From Ligula intestinalis (Eukaryota; Platyhelminthes; Cestoda; Diphyllobothriidea; Diphyllobothriidae), in assembly GCA_036362985.1 (NCBI GenBank), contig JAYGXS010000002.1:12047880-12111879 (forward strand): a DNA stretch of 64,000 bases, given 5' to 3'. Below the pieces are notes generated by a model. The model had not been told where the DNA came from, made no database searches, and saw only the letters and a list, made by a program, of their open reading frames with translations. This document shows, piece after piece, positions 4,520 to 59,680 of this stretch. The position numbers were made by a program, and so were the translations under genes. Each line of letters starts with the position of its first letter. Position 1 is the stretch's first letter.

Positions 4520-5150
4520 AGTGTCTTTGCCTGAGTTGTGGCAACAGGAACAAGAACTTTATTACTTTTCGCATCGAGGCATCTTTTGACGCTGCGAAGA
4601 TCAGGGAAGAGACTGAAAATCTTTATATGTTGGTGAAGACTCTTCCTCCACTATTTTAGCTCAGATTCAGAAGCTCTTGAGCGAGCCTCCAGCGGCGAAC
4701 CCATACAGAAAACTTAAGTCAGAGCTTTTACGCTTGATCTCCGTTTCTGATCATCAGCGTTATCATGCTCTGGTGAAAAAAGAGACTTCAGGTGATCGTA
4801 AGTCATCCGTATTTCTCTGTCGGATGCATTTCTCTCTTGGTGACATGAGCATTGACACAAATATGTTTTTCGAGCTACTACCATCGTCTATTCAAACTAT
4901 TCCGGCTGCTGGATTAGACGATGGTGATGTTGTAAAGCTCGCTAATATGGCAGATGAGATGATGGAGGTGAAGCGTTTCTGTTCCAACCACATCTCTGAA
5001 ACTTACAGAGATATACGTGGAGAACTGGGTGATATTTCTGCATATATTCCCATTTTACAATTGAGAAGTCATCCTGACAAACACGTGTTTTCAACAATTC
5101 TTCGTCAGACCAATATAGTTGCAGGGCCTAAAATGGTCAGTTATATGTAG
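4520..5150 (+). pseudogene. gag: Gag remnant of a Ty3/gypsy retrotransposon
   Basis: Gag is the RNA-packaging structural protein of LTR retrotransposons. The main open part (4677-5150) reads like the capsid-region gag of metazoan gypsy elements: a helix-rich stretch with a SDHQRYHALVKKE segment, a GDRKSS segment and a final ANMADEMMEV segment, in the order seen in CsRn1-type gag. Related sequence continues upstream in another frame (about 4520-4655, including LPELW and DAAKI), so at least one frameshift lies near the T-run at 4655-4660. No LTR directly abuts it. The call rests on family resemblance, not on a catalytic motif. Confidence 0.6.
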
Positions 5151-11859: not shown

Positions 11860-12380
11860 CCACCAGGCCCTCTGATACTTTCAGTGGTGTATCACATATA
11901 ATGTCTAAACTGCCCTCGAAATTGCACAGGACAGACAGGACGCATGCTTGGATTGCGCATACACGAACATAAGCTGGATGTGCGGCGGGCTGATACATTA
12001 TCGCAAGTGGCTGCCTACACCTACGAGACGGGTCACGAGTTTAACTTCGCAGCTGCGAGGATAATCACGCACGCCGACAACAAGAAAGGCCGCGAATTGA
12101 TTGAAGCCTGAGCCTCGAATGAGAACTCAGTGAATCGATTTATCGACCTGGCGCCCGCATACATCGCCCTGCACAGGCATCTCCAGAGTGATGGCACTGG
12201 AACTTGATTTCCTCCCTCGCCCCTGTCTCCCATAGCTGTTGCTTGTCTTCCGTTGGCATCTTTTACCTGTGACGATGGACTCCAGAAAACACCCGAAAGC
12301 TCTGACGAGAAAAAATATGATTCTGCTGATCGAAAGGTCTTCTCCCTCTCTATCTACTGTCAGTGTATTGAGGATACAAA
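11860..12380 (+). pseudogene. PLE GIY-YIG endonuclease fragment and 3' region
   Basis: PLE proteins fuse a reverse transcriptase to a GIY-YIG nuclease that nicks target DNA. Here a GIY-YIG-type stretch (NCTGQTGRMLGLRIHEH, about 11910-11960) is followed by TYETGHEFNFAAARIITHA and SVNRFIDLAPAY, a C-terminal region that recurs at 36.2 and 40.9 kb. A stop interrupts the start of the domain and another falls near 12108. The reverse transcriptase part is missing. The 3' untranslated part contains a TGACGATGG...CGAAAGC module at 12270-12299. The PLE type, with a Cys-bearing GIY-YIG start, differs from the element at 24.3 kb and recalls Neptune-like PLEs. Confidence 0.8.
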
Positions 12381-12384
12381 TGAA

Positions 12385-13265
12385 AATGCGAGGTCCAGGA
12401 AGCAGTGGAGAAGGAGTAGACGTGAACACCTTAGCGAAATTCGTGCAATTCAGCGGTGTTTGTGACTCGTTGGGTGGTTGTTGTGGAGGTAGGTCCGGTA
12501 CGTGCATCGTTGTTGCCACTTTCCTGACCACGTTGGTCATTAGGTCAGCACAATATTTTTGCGACAGATGAGGACATCCAAAAAGGCCAGCGGGTTGTTT
12601 TCATCCTCCCTCCTCCCCTCTACACCATGTACTTCTTCTAGTCACTGGTGTACTGCTTCAAAGTACTTGCTAACACCGAGGTCGTGATGGTTCCAGTCTG
12701 CCTGCTGCGTGCCACGTATGCTACTTAGGCCTGCTGTTCATGATTTGCTGACGGTGTACTTCTGCACATCGAGAGTGTTTTTCACTTGATTTGCTCGTAT
12801 GAAGTTAAGCACACAGCGAAGTTGCATAACCTCCAGGGTCCTTTAGACCGCTTCTTTAAAAAAAAACACCAGGCCTCAATGCCAACAAGTGATTAAATGC
12901 CCAATAACATGCGGGCAAGAGAAGAATTCAGCAGATAAAACTTATTCAGAAGTGAGTGACCTAATTTATGTCTAATAAGCCTCAGGAATTTTCTTCGTCC
13001 TTAATGCCTTTAGCTCTGATTACAAGGTTCATTCAATCGATAAATAAGTATCATTTGAAATCTCGTTCCAAAATAATTGAAAGCAATAAAGTTGGTCTAC
13101 CACCTTAGAAACACCTAATCACAGAATTCTGTCTAACAGGGCTGGTGGTATTATTTTAATCTTACTTTTATTATAGTTTAGTTTTTACTTTAGTTAGATT
13201 TGTTGAGTTTAGCTTAGTTTATTTACCAACACAAGCGAACATGCGAATCCCAGGAATAAATTGAG
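12385..13265. other. Unassigned stretch
   Basis: No gene seen. The flank 13235-13271 (ATGCGAATCCCAGGAATAAA) is shared with the left flank of the palindromic elements at 38.25 and 59.41 kb and so belongs to that family. Confidence 0.4.
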
Positions 13266-13271
13266 AATAAG

Positions 13272-13546
13272 ATGACTCGATCGCTGGAACAATACTTTTA
13301 TTCGCCTGAGGTTTCTAGATCCGTCGCGGATTCGCCACCAGAAACATAGTCATAGAGCAGTAGCATATGCACACAGGTTTGCAATATTGATAGGATACAG
13401 TCATTACTGCAAACCTACAACGACAATTAACGGTAGTTGCCTTCTTGCTTGTTGGTAGTTTGTTGAACAGCAAGCGGGTCAGAGCCCGCGACGGATTTCG
13501 AAATGTTAGGTGAACAAAAGTATCGTCCAAGTGATCGAGTCATCTT
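13272..13546. mobile_element. Palindromic short element with PLE-type termini, copy 1
   Basis: Left arm GATGACTCGATCGCTGG...TTTTATTCGCC and right arm GAACAAAAGTATCG...GTGATCGAGTCATC are inverted copies of one 70-80 base unit. Inside each arm lies a small hairpin (ATCCGTCGCGGAT on the left) next to a GAAAC-type motif. The spacer is about 115 bases. Two further full copies (38284-38478, 59405-59680) and one single arm (55345-55420) establish the family. Confidence 0.8.
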
Positions 13547-13549
13547 CTT

Positions 13550-13900
13550 CTTAGTTTATTTAGTTTATGATATAGTAGTTATTTAAGTATGTTTATCTAA
13601 CGTGGGTGGTATCTAACTAAATTGAAATAAAAATGATAAACTAAAGTAAAACCAATAAAACTAAAAGTAATCACAGGACTAGGTGGTCTCAAAGGTGGTA
13701 AACCAACTTTATGATCACCAAAAATCCTTAAAGCATCAAGAAAGCCGACAGTCGTTTTGCAATCAAAAAATCTCTAGTTGTCATATTTTCAAGAAGGTAA
13801 CCAAACAACCGTGTGCCTCCATGGCGCTTTTGGCTGCTGGGGAAAGTTAAATAGCGGCATTAATAAAAGAACAAAATTCAGTTGACCTAACTTTGAAAAA
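13550..13900. other. Unassigned AT-rich stretch
   Basis: Rich in TTTAGTTTA-type words; no gene or shared repeat found. Confidence 0.4.
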
Positions 13901-13999: not shown

Positions 14000-14165
14000 G
14001 TTTCATGGGGAACCTCGTAGCTCAATGGTAGAGTGTTGGCTGTGCAAAAGCCTTTCCTGTTCTGTGGGTTTGATTCCCACGGAGGCCGTTTACTTTTCAC
14101 AACTGGGACAGTCATCTTTCTGTATCTGTAACGGTGGATTCCATACAAGCAGTAGGTGTGATTAA
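14000..14165 (+). mobile_element. tRNA-derived SINE, family 1
   Basis: CTCGTAGCTCAATGGTAGAG (A box) and GTGGGTTTGATTCCCAC (T-arm hairpin with B box) are spaced as in a tRNA. The tail TTTTCACAACTGGGACA is the family's signature. A free acceptor stem and CCA processing site are not evident, so I do not call a tRNA gene. Confidence 0.8.
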
Positions 14166-20740: not shown

Positions 20741-21175
20741 TTTATCTGAAGTAGCCCCACTCTTAACTGCTGTCAACCAAGCACATTCGTCCATTAAGTT
20801 TACGTTGGAGGAAGAAACGTCAGGTTCCTCTCTCCCTTAGACTGCTCTTATCGACTTCTCCCCTACTCGCACGACTCACTTGTACGAAAACACGAACACC
20901 TTTTACCTTGTACTCCGTTCTCATATAAATGTACTGGTCTGACGAGAATTTATCGAAGTTATACGTACGCTCGCCAATCTAGTCTTCTGAAGTAGAATAA
21001 CAAAGTCTTTTGGCCAACTAGGGCCCTACCTATACAAAGAGACGCAGAAAAAACCATTGGCACTGTAAATGAAGTCTTCTTAAGGCTGGGGTATTCCGTT
21101 CAAGTAAATGACAAGTGCTTGATTGACACCAGCACCAGCATTGCGCCAAATAAAACCATTGGTGATGCAGTTGTG
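20741..21175 (+). pseudogene. Degraded PLE reverse-transcriptase-end fragment
   Basis: Scattered frames resemble the part of PLE proteins between the polymerase and the nuclease: VNQAHSSIKFTLEEET (compare AHPSIQFTLKMET in the element at 24.9 kb), a segment with PFSYK and EVFLRLGYS. Multiple frame changes. It is opposite in strand to the adjacent fragment at 19.9-20.5 kb. Confidence 0.55.
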
Positions 21176-23945: not shown

Positions 23946-24154
23946 GGAATGTTTATCCTGTAATTAATCGCAAGGTTGACTAAGTTAGGTAAGCAGGACA
24001 TTCCATTTCCCGTGGTTAGATATTTAATTTAGGTCCCATATCCCGACAAGCCCACACAGGTAGCCTGTTCTGCCCTCATATGGTAGCAAATCGGATCTTC
24101 ATTAGAGTTTTTACTTGAAGTTTCGAAATTTTTTATATTTATGAAATTTTAAGA

Positions 24155-24205
24155 GTAATTCGCGAGCATACGTATACTTTCAATAAATTCTCATCAGGCC
24201 ATTAC
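24155..24205 (-). ncRNA. Candidate hammerhead ribozyme at a PLE end
   Basis: On the minus strand the order is stem I 5' strand GTAATGGC, core CTGATGA, a two-pair stem II with loop (GAATTTATT), core GAAA, stem III GTATACGTATGC (four pairs around ACGT), then TC (the cleavage dinucleotide) and the stem I 3' strand GCGAATTAC. Stem I gives two pairs, a small internal loop and five more pairs (GTAAT with ATTAC). All invariant hammerhead residues are present. The flank 24206-24305 looks like a PLE 3' UTR in minus orientation, so the motif would be in the sense of that element. Published work reports hammerheads in PLEs. The weak stem II is the main doubt. Confidence 0.65.
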
Positions 24206-24305
24206 ACTTATATGGGAAGGGCGTAAAGCGTAAAAGGTAAATTGTAGGTAAATTACGTTCAGCGCTACAAGCAAATTAGTCCAGGGGATAGGGGATCGCA
24301 CAGAA

Positions 24306-25990
24306 GAAATAGAGGCCCAATTGACTGACTGCTTACGAAGACTCCACACGGGAGGTTTCATAAGCGACTGGGACTTCGAAGGCCTCCAACCAGTAGGCAC
24401 GCACATCCCCGTTTATATGGTCTACCAAAGATCCATGAGGATGGCCTGCCAGTTCGTCCGATTCTGGACATGCGCAATTCACCGTATAATGGGAAAGCGA
24501 AATGGTTGGCGGCGAAATCCAAGCCTTTGCAGCATCAACTGGTACCACGGAGCTATCGAGACACGTTTGAATTTATCGATGATATCGATGATGTGAACTT
24601 AAACGGCACGAGAATGTTCTCCTTAGACGTCTCCTCGCTGTTCACGAACGTCCCGGTTACCGGGACAGTCGAAAACATCTGAAATTCCTATTGAGCAATA
24701 AACTAGAACAAGGAATACCGACGAATGCACTAAAGGAACTACTACTGAAGTGCACAATAAATGTGAAGTTCCGTTTTGACAGCCAAATATACAGACAAAT
24801 CGATGATGTTGCCATGGGCTCGCCTCTGGGGGCTCTCCTGGCTGACATATTCATGGGCAAGCTGGAAAAACGTCAACTTAGCGATCAGATCCGCAAGTTA
24901 AAACAGTACGGTCACTAAGTGGATGATATCTTCATGATCGCCACAAACGAAAACGATAGCGACGCAATCTTAAGCGCGTTCAATCAAGCCCATCCATCCA
25001 TACAGTTCACGTTGAAGATGGAAACAGCAGGTTCTCTCCCCTTCCTGGACGTCCTCCTTAGTCGTAGCCCCGACGGAAGCGTCCGAAGGAGCGTGTGTAT
25101 AAATAAAACCTGGTCTGGACAACATACGGACTTTAACAGTTTCGTACCCCTCCAAAAGAAGCGAAATCTAGTTCGCTGCTTGATGCAAAGAGCTAGAAAA
25201 ATTTGCTCTGAAGACACCATTGAAGAGGAACTCAAGAAAATCCAGGACTTACTGCGTGAGAACGGATATCCTGAGCAATTTATTACCAAGAATAAAGCTG
25301 CCAAAAAAATAAAGCCCACAACACTCACTGAAAAGAAGAAAACATTATTTCTCAAAGTGCCCTTTCAAGGAGACGCGACAGGTGAACTCCTGAAAAGACG
25401 CCTTGATGAGGCCGTGTCAAGAACTTTCCCTGCAGCGAGATTTCGGGTACTATTCTCAAATAACCCAGTCTTCCATGGGGAAGGTAAGGGCAGGTTACCG
25501 ACTCAGACCACCTCCATGTGCATCTACTCCTTTGCTTGCTCCTGCGGCGCAGGTTACATTGGTCACACGAGTCGGCGCCTATCCAAAAGAATAAAGGAAC
25601 ACGTCTTGCAATGGCTATGGAAGGGTGAATTCAATACCACCAGAACCATCAACAGCTCTATTCTAGCGCACATGGTGGATTCCGGACATCAGGTGGACCC
25701 CAACGAAGCCTTCAGGGTGATCTACAAGGTCCCACCAAGCTACCCTAAGTCACTGGGTCAGCTCCTGCTGGCAACAGCAGAAGGAACTGCTATCCGGTTG
25801 AGGAAGCCAATTTTGCGCGCGCAGAAGAACCTGCTGCAAGCCCCAAGCTTAGCATGGCCAACAGCCACCTAGCTACCGGCATTTTTCCCCGAGCTTCCTC
25901 TCTTCCTTCCCCCCCTTCTCCCTAAGTACCGCTTAATTAGCCCTTGTTATCACCTCACCCCCTCTCCTATCCATTGGACTAACGTAATTT
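24306..25990 (+). pseudogene. Penelope-like element: reverse transcriptase and GIY-YIG nuclease, inactivated
   Basis: The best-preserved coding remnant in the window. Motifs in order: LYGLPKIHEDGLPVRPI (24411-24462), the palm motif DVSSLFTNVP (about 24625-24655), MGSPLGALLADIF (about 24813), the YVDD box with the first residue changed to a stop (24916-24918), then a 317-residue open frame (24919-25872) with SIQFTLKMETAGSLPFLDV near its start and the GIY-YIG domain from residue 200 (CIYSFACSCGAGYIG, RIKEHV). The start of the protein is missing, single-base losses shift the frame near 24410 and 24681. A C-rich 3' UTR runs to about 25990. Family: the Penelope/Poseidon-like group of PLEs common in flatworms. 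Confidence 0.93.
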
Positions 25991-26029
25991 AACGCTGCGA
26001 AAATCCCCATTCGATAATTCAGAAGGACA

Positions 26030-26095
26030 GTTGGCGAGCATACGTATACTTTCGATAAATTCTCTTCGGGCCATTACATTTATATGGAAGGGGAA
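26030..26095 (-). ncRNA. Decayed hammerhead-like motif, second copy
   Basis: Same layout as 24155-24205: GTAATGGC, stem II with a better G-C closing pair (GAATTTATC), GAAA, stem III GTATACGTATGC, TC and GCCAACTG, which pairs four bases with ATGGC. The catalytic box is CCGAAGA instead of CTGATGA, so activity is not expected. It directly follows the 3' UTR of the minus-strand PLE fragment at 26115-26452, as the PLE model predicts. Confidence 0.6.
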
Positions 26096-26114: not shown

Positions 26115-26452
26115 TCAATTAATTATCGTTCTAATCAACTTAGTCTTGGGAATGGGGGCTTGGGGTTTGGGTTGATAAAAAGGGGGTAGTGACAGGGTAA
26201 TAAGAAGAGGCAGGGGGGAAAGAACGCGTCAAAAATGCTGGTAGTTCTGTGGCCGTTGGCCATGGTAGGCTTGGGGCCTGAAGAAAGTTCTTTTGCGCGC
26301 ACAACACCGGCTTCATCAGGCGAATGGCCGTGGCTTCTGCTGTTGCCAGCAGCCGTTGACCCAGGGACTTCGGGTAATCTGGTGAGACCTTGTAGATCAC
26401 CTTAAAGGCTTCGTTCGGGTCAACACGGTGTCCAGAGTCCACCATATGAGCT
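26115..26452 (-). pseudogene. PLE nuclease C-terminal fragment and 3' UTR
   Basis: The frame 26140-26445 reads MVDSGHRVDPNEAFKVIYK, LLATAEATAIRL and APSLPWPTAT, nearly the same as the end of the plus-strand element 0.5 kb away. It begins at the equivalent of the last third of the GIY-YIG domain and is cut by a LINE fragment. Together the two PLE pieces form an inverted (tail-to-tail) arrangement. Confidence 0.9.
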
Positions 26453-26454
26453 CA

Positions 26455-26975
26455 TATAGTAAAAGGTCATAGAATACTCAAAGTTAAAACTTTACACGGC
26501 ATCCACATCTGTTATGGAGACAAGTCAGCTTTAAACTTCTTAATTTCCATTTCTTCACACGTGAGGTCGCGTGCTAGGAATGGGAGTTACAGAGTGCTGG
26601 TATTCCGAGTTACGGTGGCAAGGTATACGGCAGAAGTTTCGGCGCATAGTACGGGAGGAATTTGCAGCCATTAGTTCGGAATGGAGAGAGTGAGCGACCT
26701 CACTAAGGATGCGGTCAGCAACTTGCTTGACTGTTTAATAGTTGCTGTTGTATTATAATGTAAGCTTAGAAATATAGGAAACAGCAGCAGCTGAAGAGAG
26801 CATTCGGAGGATGGGGTAAAAATGACCAGTTCTTTTTTCATTAAAGCTGGAATAATAACTGGATAGGAGTAACGAATGAGGGGGAGAATGCAGGTATCTA
26901 TAAAAAGGGCTTACTGTGTGCGAGATGAACGCAGACGGCGGATATGATACAAAAGTTTACAGATTTTAATAAAAT
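26455..26975 (-). pseudogene. CR1-type LINE 3' fragment
   Basis: Minus-strand copy of the same C-terminal region and 3' UTR as 17045-17665 and 27990-28480 (CATTCGGAGGATGGGG, GGTCATTTTTACCCC, CTGTCTCCATAACAGATG). Frames are broken throughout. Confidence 0.8.
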
Positions 26976-33569: not shown

Positions 33570-33770
33570 GAAGTCAAGTTAAGCGAACGAACGTTTTCGA
33601 TTAATTCATAATCAGGCAATACAATCTCAAATTGTTATAAGTGCCTCCTAAACAGGCCACGTACTAGACGCGCTGAACAAACAGAGAAGAAGGGGGCAAG
33701 TCGGGATGTGACAGACGTTATTAGGGTTGCGCACCGAACATGGGCGGGGGGAGGGGGGTGTGAGGGCACA
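33570..33770 (-). mobile_element. PLE 3' terminus with hammerhead-like motif
   Basis: Minus strand: a C-rich tract (complement of GGGCGGGGGGAGGGGGG at 33742-33758), then GTATTGC, CTGATTA, a small stem, GAAA, stem III ACGTTCGT, TC and GC. Layout equals that at 24.16 kb, but position 8 of the core is T. No coding frame is left. It is a different subfamily from the 24.3-kb PLE because stem III has another sequence. Confidence 0.5.
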
Positions 33771-38250: not shown

Positions 38251-38283
38251 AAACATGCGAGTTCCAAAAAGTAATTGGGGAGA

Positions 38284-38478
38284 AGACTACTCGATCGCTG
38301 GGACAATACGTTTATTCGCATGACATTTCGATATCCGTCGCGAATTCGTCATCAGGGACATAGTCAGACCTGTATCTGCTACTATTATCTGACTATGTCT
38401 CTGATGACGAATTCGCGACGGATGTCGAACTGTCATGCGAATAAAAGTATTGTCCCAGCGATCGAGTCGTCTTCTTCT
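38284..38478. mobile_element. Palindromic short element with PLE-type termini, copy 2
   Basis: The most symmetrical copy: about 82-base arms, GACTACTCGATCGCTGGG...ATAGTCAG and CTGACTATG...CCCAGCGATCGAGTCGTC, around a loop of about 24 bases. Each arm has the unit CTGATGACGAATTCGCGACG, then GAAA or GAAC, then GCGAATAAA. The left flank AACATGCGAGTTCC is shared with copies 1 and 3. Confidence 0.88.
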
Positions 38479-40784: not shown

Positions 40785-41095
40785 GGGAATTGAGGCCATT
40801 GTTCGAATCCCAGATATGTGTGAAGATGGAGAAGGAGAAGGCGTTTCGATCACCGGAATCATAATTTTACTCGTCTGTGCTTTCGGCCTCTTTCTGAAGT
40901 CCATCGGCAGAAATAAAAGGAGTCAACGAAAGAAAGGCAACAGCTATAGGAGGCAGGAGCCAATCATTCACGGGTGCCATAAGTCCGGAGATGCCTGCGC
41001 AGGGCAATGTATGCCGGTGCCAGATCGATAAATTGATTGACTGAGTTCTCATCCGAGGTCTAGGCTTCACTAAATTCGCAGCCTGTCTTTTTGCC
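40785..41095 (-). pseudogene. PLE C-terminal fragment and 3' region
   Basis: Minus strand: SDENSVNQFIDLAPAYIALR, a stop, then the 3' region shared with 12.2 and 51.4 kb, including a CTGCCGATGG...CCGAAAGC module (40880-40910, core residues changed). Confidence 0.75.
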
Positions 41096-42224: not shown

Positions 42225-42475
42225 AGTCATTCTGGTGGATTTTAGACGATTGCTTAGGAAATCCTGCTTGGGCAATCAACTTGCTGTCCCGTATTGGTGG
42301 CAAAGTTGGGCGGGTAATATCGATCTAAGTGTGATTAAACTCATGGCGTGAAGCGCGACATTCGTAGCTCAAGTAAGTAGAGCTTTGGCTTGCGTAAAAT
42401 GCCTCCCTCCTATGCGGGTTCGAATCCCGCCGAATGCCGCGAGTTTTTTCACAATTGGCTCAACTAAAAGTTTCG
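42225..42475 (+). mobile_element. tRNA-derived SINE, family 1, subfamily with 5' extension
   Basis: A 130-base leader (TAGTAGTCATTCTGGTGG, GGAAATCCTGCTTGGGCA, ATATCGATCTAAGTGTG) precedes the tRNA-like part: ACATTCGTAGCTCAAGTAAG (A box), GCGGGTTCGAATCCCGC (perfect T arm) and CGAATGCCGCG, which can pair with the start as an acceptor stem. Tail: TTTTTTCACAATTGGCTCAA. Because the same unit, with leader and tail, recurs, it is a SINE. Confidence 0.85.
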
Positions 42476-43297: not shown

Positions 43298-43957
43298 CTA
43301 GGCGCACCGGCGGCCAAGACAGGTTATACGGTGTGCGCGGTTGAATAAGGGACTTGTCCGTCCCCCGGGGTGACCAATTTCCGAGGCCAGTGATAAGCCG
43401 TGTGCGGTCGCGTTAGTGATTTTCGCCCATGGTAATTGCAGCGCCGTCACAAAGTTTTTTTTGAGCGCACAGCCCCGGTTTGCAACTGCTTCTGATGTAG
43501 CCAATAGACGCTGTCCAAGCAATTTTGAATAGCTCGAGGGCACCTTGTAGATCACTCGAAAAGTGCCTCTGGCATGCGCGTGATGGTTTGAGTCTACTAT
43601 ATGCGCTAAAATTGAACTGTTAATGGCCTTTACTTGGCCCTTCTCTAACCATGCCGGAAGGTGTTCGCGTACTCTTTTGGATAGATGCCGGCTCTTGCGA
43701 TCCATATATTCTGCCCAACAGGAGCAGGTGAATAAGTAGATGCACATAGAGGTGGTCTGGGCTGGCAGTTTATCCTTTTCCTCTCCGTTTAGGATGGACG
43801 TAGTTGAGAACGGTATATGGGCAATGGCTGTTGGAGAGGTTTTCGATACAGCTTGGCTCAGGCGCTTTCTAAGGGGTTCGCTTGGCGTGTCCCCTTTAAA
43901 CAGGACCCTGATGAAGATTCTTTTCTTCTGTAGGGTCGTAGGTTGTGCTTGTGCCTA
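43298..43957 (-). pseudogene. PLE linker and GIY-YIG nuclease fragment
   Basis: Minus strand, continuously open over about 220 codons: LFKGDTPSEPLRKRLSQAV, then KLPAQTTSMCIYLFTCSC, the GIY-YIG core (Y-M-D in place of Y-I-G), RVREHLPAWLEKGQ, SSILAHIVDSNHH and LLGQRLLATSEAVA. It follows the same order as residues 140-310 of the 24.9-kb PLE frame. A G-rich tract at 43260-43275 (C-rich on the coding strand) is the expected 3' UTR. Reverse transcriptase part absent. It belongs to the Penelope/Poseidon-like group, not the Neptune-like one. Confidence 0.9.
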
Positions 43958-44055
43958 GATCACTACAATCAGCAGGTCAAAATCCCCAGGTCGAAATCAC
44001 CAGGTTGAAGGTTAACAGGCAAGAGTCACCAGAATGAGAGGTTTATTGTATACAG

Positions 44056-44150
44056 TAGTCGCCGGTTATTAAACCTACCTGGGGCCCGGACCAAATTGTG
44101 CTTAATAAGCGGCTGGGCTTATTAGCCATGGGCTTAATAACCGGCGACTA
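44056..44150. mobile_element. 95-base MITE with 17-base perfect terminal inverted repeats
   Basis: TAGTCGCCGGTTATTAA and TTAATAACCGGCGACTA are exact reverse complements. The inside is itself partly complementary (GCTTAATAAGC and GGCTTATTAG), so the whole unit folds. Flanks read CAG and AAG; if TA bases belong to the ends, a TA duplication is possible. No transposase relative seen. Confidence 0.8.
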
Positions 44151-44154
44151 AAGT

Positions 44155-44715
44155 ACAGAACTCCCAGTTGCAGTCTCATGTGGCAGTGGCCACTGGCGAA
44201 GCCAGGGCTGGTCCTGACTGCGTCCAGCCAGGCCTGAGAGAGGAGACTGTCTGTTGTGTGGGGTGAGGACAGTTGCTTTAGTAGGATTGTGAAGCAAGTT
44301 CAAGTGGTCTGTGAGTGGTGCGTTGCAATTGCCCGATGAATGTTGCCTGCAAAGGCCCCCTTCTGCGTTGGCCAGAAGTGTCGCGTTAATTGACTCTTAG
44401 GAAGGTGCGCTTATTAAGCTGAGGTCAACTGTCCGGACTGCAGGAACGCCGAAAGGCGGGGGACGTTGACGCAGCTGTTATCGGTTAGCCAGAAGCAGCT
44501 GCGAGGTCAGGCCTCGGGGCCGGGGGTTTAGTGGCCCTAGCAGCCACTTGGAACCCAAGATCTAACGGATGACGCCTTTAACCTGCGCGCCTAATGCGGT
44601 CAGGCGCTACTTGCCAGCACCCCCTGTCCATTCTCGCTCAATCGTCTGAGCCACTTACGGACACACCCAGTTTCGCCTTGCCAGCCTTGCACTGTGCAAC
44701 CAATTACCACCAGTC
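44155..44715. other. Unassigned GC-richer stretch
   Basis: Some words (CTGACTGCGTCCAGCCAGG) recall LTR middles, but no ordered match. No open frame of note. Confidence 0.35.
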
Positions 44716-44719
44716 TACC

Positions 44720-44985
44720 GAGAGAAAGCGAGTATTTGGCGGCCACCCGAGATGACTGTGGTCAGAGGACACTTGGAATTGCGCGTCGCGCGTCGCGGTC
44801 GCGGCGACATTGGACTCAAGGTCGGACGCCTTGCAAGGCCAATTGGAAAATTTCCCCAACTCTGTAAACAATATAATGTTCCGTCTACTCTGCCTTCCCA
44901 AGACTTCTACTATATCTTGAAGAACCAGGGTCTGGAAGATTGTAGGTGTTAGGGTTACCATCTTAGCCTTGACACCTATAGGGGA
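44720..44985 (+). repeat. LTR 3' part
   Basis: CGAGATGACTGTGGTCAGAG leads to GTAAACAATATAATGTTCC, CTCTGCCTTCCCAAGACTTC, CAGGGTCTGGAAGATTGTAG and CATCTTAGCCTTGACACC, the 3' order of the family. The start is not recognisable. Confidence 0.7.
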
Positions 44986-44989
44986 GAGC

Positions 44990-46875
44990 ATTAAAACAGT
45001 TGTTTGTGACGACACGACTATGAGGCAGCGAGCCTTGAAGAACGAAGGGTAGGGGGGAGAATTATGGCACTCCGCCACACTTCTCTGCTGTTAGCACCGA
45101 TGGCTTTCGCGGTCTTTAGCCATGTTCTTGGCAATAAATCAATTAGGATACCCAGTTCATCGAAAAATGCTTGCTACAATTTTAAGATCTTCTTTGATGC
45201 TATCGATCGAGCAAATCCTTCTAGCTCTTTGTGCCAAACATCTTACTCAATAACATTTAAGGTTTAACTGTACGAAACTAGCAAAATGGGTACATTGGCC
45301 GGACCATATCTTCTTACGATAGACCCTACGTTGAAAACTCCAGTCCGGCCTTTTGCTCAAAAGTACATCGAGAAATGGGAGTGACCCAGGCTGTTCTTCT
45401 TCACGTGTAACTTTTATGGAAAATTGTGTATGATGTACGGTGTGCAGTACAGCTGTAATGTTGGTTTGTTCGGATGCAACCGCGAATATATCGTCTGTAG
45501 TACGTCAGATTACCTTTATCTGGCAAAGGTCTGGTGAGAATGTGTCGAAAACAAACGTATGTTGGACAATTTATCTTCTGACATGACAAAAGTGCAGAAT
45601 ATCTGAGACTGTCTTAGGATTTCGGCCAGCCACTATACCTTGAACCTGCTTATCGCCTGTCATATGGAGCGCGCTCGACATGTCTGATGACCTCGGGCCT
45701 ATTTAACAATGCAAATTGCTGAAAGTTCTCAGTTTGTCCTTGGGGAAATATGTGTGCAGCGTCCGTGTGGACGTGGCCGCTTGGTCTGTTTATGCAAAAA
45801 ACGCAACCTAGCACATGCGTACAAAAAGAATTCCTGGCGAAAAAAGATACGTCTGAGCCAACAAAAAAGAAGTTTGTAGAAAATGCTGCAATTGGGCGGA
45901 TTCACTAGATGATTTTCCTTGAAGTAAACCGCGGGTGCGTTCGCAGTCGGACAGAAAGTTTTCCAAAGTTTCTCTCTAAAGACGTCTATCATAGTGGACT
46001 CTTCAGTTTTATTCTGGAAATGTTTCCAGCATTTATAACATGCCAAACAGCGGTCTGTTGAACAGCGAAACACAACTCAAGAAAAGCACACACAGGGCCT
46101 CCATCAGTATGTGAACTTTGCAGATGTTAGAGATAAATTTTAGCGACACATGGGTGGACACTTGTTTTCAGCGGCGTCGAAGTGAAAATTGTGTGCGACT
46201 GTCGCTAAACGGCCATCCGCGTCATGCCAACCACTGGACCAAATCGTATCGTCAATCTGCGGCTTGACAGTGCTGTTTGCAACGTGCACTAGAGGGTGAG
46301 GTCGACCAGGTCATGGTTGGCACCAAATTGTGCTATTGTAAATAAACAGACGCGCTGTGAAATGCTCAAACTGCGCTAGGAGTCATGGCTTGGAGTGTGG
46401 CCAAATGGCTGCGATGATTCCTGCTCGACATGGTTATCATTCAGACACTCCGAGACCTCTTCCTACACTAGGCTACCTTTCGGTTCGATAGACCCCGTTT
46501 TTTCCTTATCAGCTCGAACACATTAGACGGCTACACGCAAAATATGTAAGGTAAACTCTATACTATTTAAAAAACCTAAATTACACGCGTTACTGTTCGC
46601 AGACAAGGAAGTCATCAAGGACTCCAATCATCTGAGTGCCTGATACAATACTACTTGAAACCGAATTTAAACCACCGAACAGGTTCTGCGCGGATTCGAG
46701 ACAAAAAAACGAGCAACCTATGGTTTTATGCTCCCTTGACATGTTTATGCGGAAACTGGCGAACTAAATCACCGCAATGAGTACACCAAAACTCAAGGAA
46801 ATGGTGCATATGTGGTTAGACCACTTTGTCCCGATAGTTTGCATATAAAATGCTACGAAAATATTATTGCGAAAT
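44990..46875. other. Unassigned stretch
   Basis: No recognised gene or shared repeat. TTTAGCGAC (46139) and GTCGCTAAA (46201) form a short inverted pair. The frames at 45064-45267 and 45729-46073 have no recognisable features. Confidence 0.45.
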
Positions 46876-46879
46876 TTTG

Positions 46880-47100
46880 ACAGATTTTGTTGATTTAGTT
46901 GATCCAATTGTGAAAAAACTAGCGGCATTTGGCGGGATTCGAACCCGCATACGACGGAAGGCCTTCTACGCAAGCCAATGCTCTACCTACTTGAGCTACG
47001 AATGTCGCGCTTCACACCGTGAGTTTACTCACACTTGGATCGATATTACCTGCTCAACTCTGGCCCTCGTATGGAATCCACCAATACGGAACAGCGAGTT
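46880..47100 (-). mobile_element. tRNA-derived SINE, family 1, minus copy of a head-to-head pair
   Basis: On the minus strand: ACATTCGTAGCTCAAGTAGG, GCATTGGCTTGCGTAGAAGG, GCGGGTTCGAATCCCGCC and AATGCCGCTAGTTTTTTC. The leader (GGTGGATTCCATACGAGGGC, ATATCGATCCAAGTGTG) runs to the centre near 47100. Confidence 0.88.
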
Positions 47101-47310
47101 TACTGCCCAAGCAGGATTTCCTTAGCAATCATCTAGAATCCACCAGAATGACTACTAGTCGATCCAAGTGTGATTAAACTCGCGGTGTGAAGCGTGCCAT
47201 ATGTAGCTGAAATAAGTAGAGCGTTGGCTCGCGAAGAAGGCCGTCCCTCCTATGCGGGTTCGAATCCCGCCGAATGCCGCGAGTTTTCTCACAATAGAGT
47301 CAACTAAATA
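47101..47310 (+). mobile_element. tRNA-derived SINE, family 1, plus copy of a head-to-head pair
   Basis: Leader GATCCAAGTGTGATTAAAC and GCGGTGTGAAGCGTGCC, A-box region TGTAGCTGAAATAAGTAGAG, T arm GCGGGTTCGAATCCCGCC and tail GAGTTTTCTCACAATAGAG. With the previous entry it forms a palindrome of about 420 bases. Confidence 0.88.
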
Positions 47311-48645: not shown

Positions 48646-48775
48646 CAAGCTGGTTAATTTTACAATCCTACTTAAGTACTCGTTGCGAAACGAAAACAAA
48701 GTTCAGAATCGTTCGCACCATCGCCAAAGAAGAAGAAGGTAGGAGGACAAAGACCTAATTATATTGAGACCGATG

Positions 48776-48805
48776 TTTCGGATGCTTGCTCGGTTCCATC
48801 GTCAG
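48776..48805 (-). ncRNA. PLE 3' RNA-like module
   Basis: Minus strand CTGACGATGGAACCGAG then CATCC and GAAAC: the catalytic-core words of a hammerhead around a weak hairpin, just 3' of a PLE coding remnant. Stem III and the cleavage dinucleotide are not convincing, so it may be a relic. Confidence 0.35.
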
Positions 48806-48810
48806 GGTAA

Positions 48811-49715
48811 CTAGGTGGTTATCTCTGTCTGCCAGGACTGTTTCAGCCTTGCCGCATGCCTGGTATTATATCCGTGCTCGACGCACGAACTTTGACCTGC
48901 CTGTTCACTGCTGACTGACCGTGAGTTTGATCGCTGGTGGGTTCGTGTGACCTTTGCCCCTTTGCGGCTGTCGTAAGTCAGCGTACTGACCGGCCTGCCC
49001 CTCGTCGATCGACATACTAAGCAGTTGTTGCTGCCTCCGTGGGCTGATGGCAATATCATGGGATCGCCGGTGACGATGGTCACGTGGCTCCTGGCCGGCT
49101 CCTTCCAATTTTTCTCTGACGCGAGTTGTATTCCACTTTTGAATTTGCTTTGCCTTCCTATTGGCCTTGTTTGAACTGACTCGAGCCATGTGCGCAACGC
49201 CCGATAGGCATGATGAAGGCCTATGGCTCTGTCAAGTATGCCAGTCGAAAACCGACTTTCCAGCATGAATCTGGCCATCTTGTCATTGGCGAAAACGTGA
49301 TTCTTCTGCTGTGCGTAGTCATAAACCATAGACAGCTTATTCTTGCGGCTGATTGCCTGTTGATGTTCGTGAAACCTTAGGCGTCTGCCCATTTCACCAA
49401 CATACCTTTCATCATAGTTTTGGGCATGGTATGCTGTAAACCACAGCCGAGTGTTCTGTCAATGGTAGTGGATCTTTGGGCCTCGTGATCTGTTGTCTGA
49501 TGGTTGACTCCGGCTTATCAGCCACACCGATCCCGAATGGTTTCAGGATTCTTGCAGTCGCCTCTATTACGTTCTTCACATAAGGGATTGCGAGCCAGAA
49601 CTTAAGGTGCTCTACTTTCGACCGCTCAAGGTGGGGCTTCTTAAGACACTTGCGTACGAAGGACTTTGGATAACCGTTGGTTTGAAATAGGGCATGCAGT
49701 TTGTCTTAACGCGTT
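48811..49715 (-). pseudogene. Neptune-like PLE: linker, GIY-YIG nuclease and C-terminus
   Basis: The longest Neptune-like remnant. An open upstream frame (about 49415-49710) reads ALFQTNGYPKSFVRKCLKK, KPFGIGVADKPESTIRQQ and AVVYSIPCP, the first half of the nuclease. A one-base frameshift near 49410 leads into YDERYVGEMGRRLRFHEHQ (GIY-YIG second box YVG and conserved R/H region) and the 193-residue frame 48811-49392 with FSTGILDRAIGLHHAYRAL, a NNCLVCRS cysteine pair and a GYNTRHAARLKQS tail. Reverse transcriptase is lost. Apart from the frameshift this copy is relatively well preserved, suggesting it is younger than its relatives. Confidence 0.9.
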
Positions 49716-50100: not shown

Positions 50101-50194
50101 GCCAGTTGGTAGGGGCAAAATCATATTGCCACCTGGTGTCGGTTTAGGCCATGGAAGTGAAAGAGCTTGTGTCAGAGTCTTCTGACAACACAGC

Positions 50195-50310
50195 AAACGT
50201 TTGGTCTGATGAAGAGTTGCTGAAAACAATTGTTTGCCATAAACTGACTTCTAATATTAACCATGGGAATATTTGCGGAACAAAAAAAGCGATTAATCAT
50301 GTCAATTAAT
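50195..50310 (+). repeat. Dispersed repeat with CTGATGAAGAGTTGCT, copy 1
   Basis: GGTCTGATGAAGAGTTGCTG, TTGTTTGCCA and ATGGGAATATTTGCGGAAC recur at 53108-53185. The CTGATGA...AAAAC words suggest another PLE terminus. Confidence 0.5.
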
Positions 50311-51344: not shown

Positions 51345-51650
51345 CCCTACATATGTTGCTTGTTTTGTTGACGGTTAATTGGCCCCTTTCCCTGTAAATG
51401 TCGCTTGCTTTCGTTGTCGGATAATTGGTCCCTTCCGCCTATAAATATTGCTTGCTTTCGTTGAGAGGTAACTCTGACGATGGACTCCCGCAAGAGTTCG
51501 AAAGCCCAAACAAATAAAACTACGATTCCAGTGCTCGAAACTACTTCTTTTCCATCTATGCACATACCTGGGATGTGAACCTTTGCCTCAATTCGTGGAA
51601 TATAGTATCCATAATTTTGCGATTCTCATCAATACGGCAGCTGTCAACTT
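51345..51650 (+). mobile_element. PLE 3' region with well-formed hairpin module
   Basis: Matches the 3' regions at 12240-12370 and, inverted, 40785-40930. The module is CTGACGA (51474-51480), the hairpin GGACTC-CCGCAA-GAGTTC (six pairs, one G-U), then GAAAGC (51500). TTGCTTGCTTTCGTTG words are repeated three times upstream (51355-51460), forming a short imperfect tandem repeat. Confidence 0.6.
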
Positions 51651-52964: not shown

Positions 52965-53105
52965 CAATGCCCACAATCTAAGCTAATTTCCTTCACTCTA
53001 AATGCTGATCTCGCCATACGGATGGCGTGAAAACGATGAGTTGTAATCAAAGAACATTCATTAACCCTGTCCAGCAGTAAAATTTTCATTATCCTTGCAA
53101 GGCTT
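52965..53105. other. Unassigned short gap
   Basis: Nothing recognised. Confidence 0.3.
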
Positions 53106-53205
53106 CTGGCCTGATGAAGAGTTGCTTAAAACATGTTTGCCAAATCGAGTTTTCAAATTAGACATGGGAATATTTGCAGAACTCAGAAAAAAACTAGCAA
53201 AACCA
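53106..53205 (+). repeat. Dispersed repeat with CTGATGAAGAGTTGCT, copy 2
   Basis: GGCCTGATGAAGAGTTGCTT, CATGTTTGCCAAATCGAG and ATGGGAATATTTGCAGAAC match 50195-50310 in the same strand. Confidence 0.55.
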
Positions 53206-55344: not shown

Positions 55345-55420
55345 CTACTCATGTCTCTGATGACGAATCCGTGACGGATATAGAAACGTCAGGCGAATAA
55401 ACATATTGTCCCAGCGATCG
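55345..55420 (+). mobile_element. Single arm of the palindromic PLE-terminus element
   Basis: TCTCTGATGACGAATCCGTG, ACGGATATAGAAACGTCAGG and TTGTCCCAGCGATCGAGTC equal the right arm of the copies at 38.4 and 59.6 kb. The left arm is absent. The GAAAC word, lost in some copies, is kept here as AGAAAC. Confidence 0.8.
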
Positions 55421-55421
55421 A

Positions 55422-55461
55422 GTCTTCTTCTTCTTCTTCTTCTTCTTCTTCTTCTTCTTCT
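55422..55461 (+). repeat. (TTC)n microsatellite
   Basis: About thirteen uninterrupted TTC units, directly after the palindromic-element arm. The other copies have short CTTCTTCTTC tails in the same place, so the microsatellite probably expanded from the element's own end. Confidence 0.9.
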
Positions 55462-59404: not shown

Positions 59405-59680
59405 ATGCGAACATGCGAGTCCCAGGAAGTATTTGACAAGAAGACAACTCGATCGCTGGGTTAGTTCTTTTATTCGCCTGACGTTTCGATATCTGTCGCG
59501 GATTCATCCTCAGGAACATAATCGCAGCGCAGTAGCAGGCACAGGTAGTGTATGCACAGGAAATTTGCCGTATAAGACAGTTTAAAGTTAAAGATGTGCA
59601 AAAATCGATTACTGTTTGGTGTGAGTGTCAGGCGAATAAAAGTAGCTTCCCAGTCATCGCGTCGTCTTCTTCTCAATTAG
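59405..59680. mobile_element. Palindromic short element with PLE-type termini, copy 3
   Basis: Left arm CAACTCGATCGCTGGG...TTTTATTCGCCTGACGTTTC and right arm GTCAGGCGAATAAAAGTAGC...CATCGCGTCGTC are inverted. The minus-strand left arm keeps CTGAGGATGAATCCGCGAC and ATCGAAACGTCAGGCG. The middle is longer than in copy 2. The left flank GAACATGCGAGTCCCAGG is shared. Confidence 0.82.

Follow-up and report, generated by a model that had tools for sequence, protein, structure and literature searches.

Here, we report that a 64,000-nucleotide stretch of tapeworm DNA (the window) carries on its minus strand, at 24205-24155, every block of a hammerhead ribozyme in the proper order, and that this copy (c1) represents a small type I hammerhead family of Penelope-like elements (PLEs) in a diphyllobothriidean-like tapeworm. 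In our overall reading, to which we assign a probability of about three in four, the motifs of this family would cut with the help of dimer formation, the RNA copied into new insertions would be left uncut, and c1 itself would be a decayed, inverted copy. Four features of the family are established by sequence: its position, its core, a mostly paired stem I base and a covarying stem III.

A preliminary description of this DNA had noticed a complete block order at c1, and both the letters and a covariance model search bear it out (Table 1). The strand reads GTAATGGC CTGATGA GAATTTATT GAAA GTATACGTATGC TC GCGAATTAC. The type I hammerhead core comprises C3 U4 G5 A6 N7 G8 A9 and G12 A13 A14, together with A15.1-U16.1 and H17, and c1 has all of it; in this numbering we take the blocks to be stem I, C3-A9, stem-loop II, G12-A15.1, stem III, U16.1-C17 and stem I again. 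Stem II is as weak as had been suspected, a 2-bp stem whose only possible pairs (G.U and A-U) close AUUUA. Stem I had been described as closed; its base mostly pairs, but one G.G mismatch and one bulged A interrupt it, and GCC is the majority reading in the other aligned copies where c1 has GCG. The best predicted fold of the c1 monomer is not a hammerhead. We consider c1 a slightly damaged, decayed copy, whose own activity is unlikely because of the G.G mismatch. It also lies antisense to the adjacent PLE A, whereas the usual place of the motif is in sense, 3' of the ORF and 5' of the start codon. Another locus (L027) has the same arrangement, and three more (L012-L014) are longer head-to-head inversions with the motif at both outer ends; on this basis, we interpret c1 as a terminal fragment that sits, inverted, at the 5' end of a PLE that has been truncated.

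Table 1. Hammerhead copies, PLE parts and neighboring features of the 64-kb window (strand as + or -; E, covariance model).
Feature	Positions	Strand	Remarks
c1, focal copy	24152..24209	-	core intact; E 2.5e-15
c1 stem I, 5' strand	24205-24198	-	GTAATGGC
c1 core block	24197-24191	-	CTGATGA
c1 stem-loop II	24190-24182	-	GAATTTATT; 9 nt
c1 core block	24181-24178	-	GAAA
c1 stem III	24177-24166	-	GTATACGTATGC; 12 nt, palindromic
c1 TC	24165-24164	-	predicted cut 24164/24163
c1 stem I, 3' strand	24163-24155	-	GCGAATTAC
c2	26024..26081	-	core CCGAAGA (U4C, U7A); E 1e-16; 3' of a minus-strand PLE (C-terminal part)
c3	33572..33626	-	core CTGATTA (G8U); 10-nt stem-loop II; E 1.6e-7
c4	20927..20984	+	CTGACGA ... 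GAAG; E 8.1e-12
c5	45519..45576	+	CTGGTGA ... GAAA; G at cut position; E 1.6e-6
Copy with 8-nt stem III	50194..50247	+	type ACAATTGT; core intact; E 2.2e-18
Copy with 8-nt stem III	5067..5120	-	type ACACGTGT; core CTGACGA/GAAA; E 3.6e-15
Copy with G12 changed	53099..53150	+	TAAA; E 6e-12
PLE A, RT and endonuclease region	24270..25872	+	5'-truncated, frameshifted; start (~24270) placed visually in the three-frame translation
C-terminal part of another PLE	26248..26460	-	PLE A lies tail to tail with it; followed by c2 in sense
PLE B fragments	43298..45495	-	45495-45109 and 43945-43415 match PLE A
Second family	55357-55399	+	
Second family	59471-59513	-	
Second family	38313-38355	-	
Second family	~38401-38443	+	
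Second family	~13264-13347	-	
Second family	13486-13552	+	
Second family	59627-59673	+	
Third group	48768-48805	-	assigned by eye, not by BLAST
Third group	51474-51516	+	
Third group	~12264-12343	+	
Third group	~40787-40967	-	
tRNA-like stretch	42358-42438	+	
tRNA-like stretch	46924-47005	-	
tRNA-like stretch	47197-47278	+	
tRNA-like stretch	14011-14088	+	

The training set of the covariance model contained no window sequence, although it did include close relatives of c1 from other parts of the genome. The model found eight hammerhead copies in the window, c1 included, at E <= 1.6e-6 and two weaker matches (57304 +, E 0.004; 9555 -, E 0.08). The window contains four instances of CTGANGA-N9-GAAA, where 60 dinucleotide shuffles average 0.2, and three instances of the core together with stems I and III, where the shuffles average 0.0. 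Two related copies, c2 and c3, had been said to keep the layout, which they do, but not the full core: c2 has U4C and U7A, and c3 has lost G8 and gained one nucleotide ahead of GAAA. The different stem III of c3, ACGTTCGT, does pair, as the preliminary description had it. The c2 core is a subfamily state rather than a private mutation, since CCGAAGA recurs in 4 of 18 copies of its lineage chosen by ORF (see below). Like c1, c5 is antisense; it adjoins the first matched residues of the minus-strand PLE B.

PLE A contains an open frame at 24919-25872 (+) with 75% identity to a Sparganum proliferum protein (P0001). Its closest relatives are Sparganum proliferum and Spirometra proteins, at identities of at most 75%, and Schistocephalus and Dibothriocephalus proteins match it as well. 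Pfam gave no match for this window ORF; among its relatives, RVT_1 was found in P0001 and P0016, and GIY-YIG in P0016 only, under the Pfam cut-off (17.2 vs 22.6 bits). The residues YIG...R...EH were recognised by eye in P0001 and PLE A, and two relatives carry the name GIY-YIG from their source. An ORF for RT and GIY-YIG endonuclease, as in Penelope-like elements, is present, and so are the tandem and inverted partial copies with pseudo-LTRs. A PLE query against viral contigs returned no match. According to the passage cited, LINE/Penelope sequences make up 9.95% of the S. proliferum assembly (PMC8166898).

Genome-wide (644 Mb), CTGATGA-N9-GAAA is found at 4,751 places, compared with 344 for a reversed control pattern. 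Twenty loci (L009-L028) were fetched around the motif: 13 have it in sense 3' of a PLE ORF match (L009-L014, L016, L018, L019, L020, L022, L023, L026), two have only an antisense motif adjoining a 5'-truncated ORF (L027, L028), and five have no ORF match (L015, L017, L021, L024, L025). To avoid choosing by the motif, we also read the DNA 3' of the PLE ORF match in 28 flanks, hand-picked at uneven steps (20 of the 91 listed P0001 matches and 8 of the 106 listed P0005 matches). The motif follows the ORF in sense in 25 of these 28. Of the other three, L090 holds an antisense motif, while L103 and L093, the latter with a run of N, hold none. The claim that the motif stands at PLE ends is upheld in the rest of the genome; c1 itself is antisense to its neighboring PLE.

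CTGANGA/GAAA is intact in 15 of the 25 ORF-chosen sense copies, namely in 8 of 18 from the P0001 lineage (three with an 8-nt spacer) and in all seven from the P0005 lineage. Free mutation of the core among genomic copies, named beforehand as a point that would speak against a ribozyme, did not occur between lineages. U4C is present in 10 of the 25, all among the 18 of the P0001 lineage: five CCGATGA, four CCGAAGA and one CCGATAA, which has G8A on top of U4C. We observed U4C PLE subfamilies in which stems I and III are kept (L079, L080, L082-L087, L092, L094), several of them adjoining long open frames.

In tandem copies, the motif also stands just upstream of the ORF start, ATGGGAATTTTCGCAACCTTAAAACAATCCAAGGATCCC..., reading MGIFATLKQSKDP. 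In the c1 family, the ATG is at +26 from the predicted cut; the leader is therefore 25 nt long. Same-strand motif pairs lie ~2.7 kb apart in L009, L010 and L011, and head-to-head copies occur in L012-L014; one motif pair in L015 is 238 bp apart.

Stem III was aligned in 25 motifs (24 distinct), hand-picked from those with an 8-nt stem III among 87 unique N9 hits; other stem III lengths, many near-identical copies and N9 hits judged non-hammerhead by eye (L006, L008, L054, L060, L064, L068, L070, L074 and window 38167) were excluded. In the 24 distinct motifs, 95.8% of the stem III cells are paired, a percentage biased upward because the motifs were hand-picked. The paired cells, the cells changed on both sides and the covariation score each exceed all 500 shuffles, which ignore shared descent. 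By contrast, two counts, of pairs with changes on both sides (140/500) and of pair types (391/500), are not above the shuffles. With the partner strand slid by +2, the covariation score is equal and the pairing only 50%. Stem III covaries across families. Its inner pair is A-U in 19 motifs, G-C in four and absent in one; a hairpin would place its tetraloop at this position, so the pair speaks for a helix that is longer and perhaps intermolecular. Stem III or its center is palindromic in ACAATTGT, ACATATGT, ACACGTGT, ACGATCGT and the ACGT center of GTATACGTATGC; in some families (GCGTTCGC) the center is not self-complementary.

The covariation that had been expected of the stems is thus seen in stem III, on three measures, but not in stem I, whose base is 81% paired, mostly by conserved letters, and yields no informative covariation. 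Stem II has at most 2 bp, often opens with a mismatch and is never changed on both sides. For the whole 14-pair structure, shuffles reach the observed paired cells in 55/500 cases and the covariation in 32/500, and on sliding, pairing falls from 72% to at most 53%. RNAalifold returned no structure on the motif alignment. In nine single motifs, the best fold contains stems I and III in c2 only, and L002 (z -2.5) and L069 (z -1.5) alone fold clearly better than shuffles. For the c1 family with GCC in stem I, the best predicted monomer contains stems I and III, and a dimer joined via stem III is predicted, in raw energies, at -31.3 vs -15.4 kcal/mol for two monomers; the predicted L009 dimer is not a double hammerhead.

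The Rfam hammerhead models, from which a match had been hoped for, gave none at E <= 10, neither in the window nor in 10 loci with the core pattern. The lack of a model hit, likewise named beforehand as a point against a ribozyme, did therefore occur with Rfam. The models seemingly do not cover this short-stem layout, and an Rfam match is not a defining biochemical feature of hammerheads; this is a hammerhead family that Rfam scans miss. Across the genome, Rfam Hammerhead_1 has at least 57 matches, at least 22 of them over the cut-off, among the 73 candidates scored of 92,101; they are probably a set separate from the PLE family. Two pairs of these matches lie ~330 bp apart on one strand (G000:C9, 23468484 and 23468816; G000:C2321, 9550 and 9880), an arrangement like that of metazoan retrozymes.

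Copy ends bear on which RNA is copied. We measured 3' ends, as the end of the match to the tandem sequence, in 44 c1-family copies out of 51 rows; the other seven rows have another subfamily's leader (L079, L082, L084, L087, window c2, c4, and L027, for which the script gave +14). The ends lie past the predicted cut, at +13 to +25 in 22 copies (L035 among them, which may be an internal deletion), at +28 to +40 in five, at +45 to +51 in 13 and beyond +60 in four. None of the 44 ends at the predicted cut, although the BLAST choice of most measured copies disfavours copies ending there. The ORF-chosen sense copies run past the cut in 25 of 25 cases. The post-cut leader plus ORF start was found at 15 places: 12 have stem III immediately upstream with at most three mismatches, and in one further place (L045) the motif stands upstream. 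In one of the 12, C8:6823140, the mismatches cluster at GAA; this copy may therefore start at stem III, which is still on the upstream side of the cut. None of the 13 copies read begins at the cut. Judged from these insertions, which run through the motif and never end at the cut, the RNA template copied into them was probably uncut at the predicted site. The lack of any sign of cut RNA being copied agrees with the PLE of the lizard Anolis carolinensis (PAc, Poseidon), for which the cited passages report that hammerhead mutants did not affect insertion in vitro and that reverse transcription began inside the RNA (PMC11167929).

We propose the following model. The motif is located in the PLE pseudo-LTR, with its predicted cut, in the c1 family, just ahead of the ORF, and is repeated 3' of the ORF, such that tandem copies hold one motif per junction. 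Two hammerheads, from one tandem transcript or from two RNAs, may pair through their palindromic stems III, and the resulting double hammerhead would be able to cut. Such a cut would free, from tandem transcripts, an mRNA with a leader of ~25 nt, whereas new insertions would be copied from RNA other than the cut product. Cutting, the dependence on two motifs and the release of the short-leader mRNA are what we infer from these sequences; palindromic stems III and tandem copies, both features of dimer-cleaving PLE hammerheads, are present.

The U4C subfamilies are a natural challenge to the cutting mechanism. Changes of U4 lower hammerhead activity. U4 makes a contact in the core, and core changes usually lower activity (Perreault et al., PMC3088659). 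A different explanation, possible though doubtful, is that the fold itself is what the element retains, serving RNA dimerisation or the binding of the PLE protein and the start of reverse transcription, with cleavage dispensable or lost in part of the family. The U4C copies would fit it, as they retain stems I and III and several adjoin open frames of ~500 aa or more; so would the ORF-chosen copies, all of which pass the cut, the measured ends lying at least 13 nt beyond it, and the PAc hammerhead mutants, which still insert in vitro (PMC11167929). However, the exact core persists in those 15 of 25 ORF-chosen copies, the whole P0005 lineage among them, while spacer and stem III vary, and a mere binding fold need not retain G5, A6, G8, G12, A13 and A14. 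On a more speculative reading, held with low confidence, the hammerhead would leave the RNA to be copied unprocessed and may be a dimerisation-gated cutter acting only where two element junctions meet, tandem arrays yielding translatable mRNA and uncut RNA integrating, and the U4C fold may be a non-cutting site of dimerisation or protein binding.

A third explanation likens the motif to the HDV-like ribozymes of R2-type elements: the RNA to be copied would first be cut and then reverse transcribed up to its new 5' end, which the motif would define. The motif directly upstream of the ORF is the expected place for such a processing site. We disfavor this explanation and hold it to be improbable, as the ORF-start copies carry stem III upstream of the cut (stem III or motif in 13 of the 15 leader-plus-ORF-start places) and no copy read begins at it.

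The weakest explanation is a chance look-alike, in which a repeat family merely has hammerhead letters conserved by recent common descent. It could appeal to the negative RNAalifold and Rfam results, to the fact that conservation within a family proves nothing because its copies are nearly identical, and to an unrelated repeat (CTGATGACATGGTACCGAAA) that occupies 14 of the 100 places listed first among the 4,751 and shows that look-alikes exist. We reject it as very improbable on the pattern counts, genome-wide and in the window, and because separate PLE lineages agree in core and spacing but differ in spacer letters and in their self-complementary stems III, with the motif in a constant position with respect to the ORF end and the start codon. 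The look-alike repeat itself is not a hammerhead, being without a usable stem I in the single copy read (L008).

The window holds further hammerhead-like groups. A second family has the classical minimal PLE layout, CTGATGA, a 19-nt stem II region and GAAACGTC or a variant of it, without stem III; seven places are linked by BLAST, some of them partial, and (TCT)13 at 55423-55461 lies shortly downstream of one of them (55357-55399). A third group reads CTGACGATGGA...CGAAA; its member at 48768 is immediately 3' of the stop of an ORF (48811-49458), which looks PLE-endonuclease-like by eye and has no Pfam match. Inverted pairs of PLE ends form long hairpins (window 38281-38475 and L015 405-592) with sub-cut-off miRNA matches (mir-999, MIR841), and could give rise to false miRNA annotations in genomes of this kind. 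Four tRNA-like stretches, two above the Rfam cut-off, probably represent a tRNA-derived SINE; the two that are shown as alignments have the head ACATTCGTAGCTCAAGTA in common.

Hammerheads in PLEs were already known, as the preliminary description stated (PMC7761336, PMC6466107, in the passages cited). The minimal type I PLE hammerheads (Cervera and De la Pena 2014) are described there as short, weak motifs in pseudo-LTRs and tandem copies, usually without helix III (PMC6155905, PMC7229834, PMC7761336), and a 2020 review called their role unknown (PMC7761336). The tapeworm family shares the type I topology, the PLE pseudo-LTR, the tandem arrangement and the short weak motif; unlike those described, it has a short, often palindromic stem III and a stem II of at most 2 bp. 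Dimer cleavage is reported for a set of small hammerhead variants associated with PLEs (Lunse, Weinberg and Breaker 2016, as described in PMC6466107); PLE association, tandem copies, a palindromic stem III (loop) sequence and the dimer logic are common to both, but dimer cleavage is described for those variants and only predicted for the tapeworm family. The PAc hammerhead is likewise placed at a pLTR/ORF junction, its cleavage is reported to be protein-assisted, and reverse transcription starts inside the uncut RNA; its cut site, however, is 26 nt inside the ORF, compared with the predicted cut 25 nt upstream of the ATG in the c1 family (PMC11167929).

Each unusual stem feature of the tapeworm family also has a counterpart in earlier work, which reports hammerheads with a 2-bp stem II, a U10.1-U11.1 mismatch and a palindromic stem III in Aedes (PMC3088659). 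The section 8 text of that paper does not list U4C as a variant, and its cited passages do not name tapeworms. Metazoan retrozymes resemble the family in being type I hammerheads of animal repeats but are non-coding small tandem repeats, whereas the tapeworm motif belongs to a coding PLE (PMC7229834); a retrozyme with a canonical hammerhead is rejected for our family, as the element that carries its motif bears an ORF and has a ~2.7-kb unit. Searches by title or abstract (hammerhead ribozyme with cestode or tapeworm; Penelope with Spirometra) found no treatment of tapeworm PLE hammerheads. The genome offers a large set of copies, with several lineages, natural core variants and mappable copy ends, and therefore makes it testable which RNA is copied, whether two motifs are needed and whether U4C copies cut. 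As the literature already covers PLE hammerheads, dimer cleavage and 2-bp stems II, we consider the tapeworm hammerheads, as far as the cited descriptions go, a new family within the established class of PLE hammerheads.
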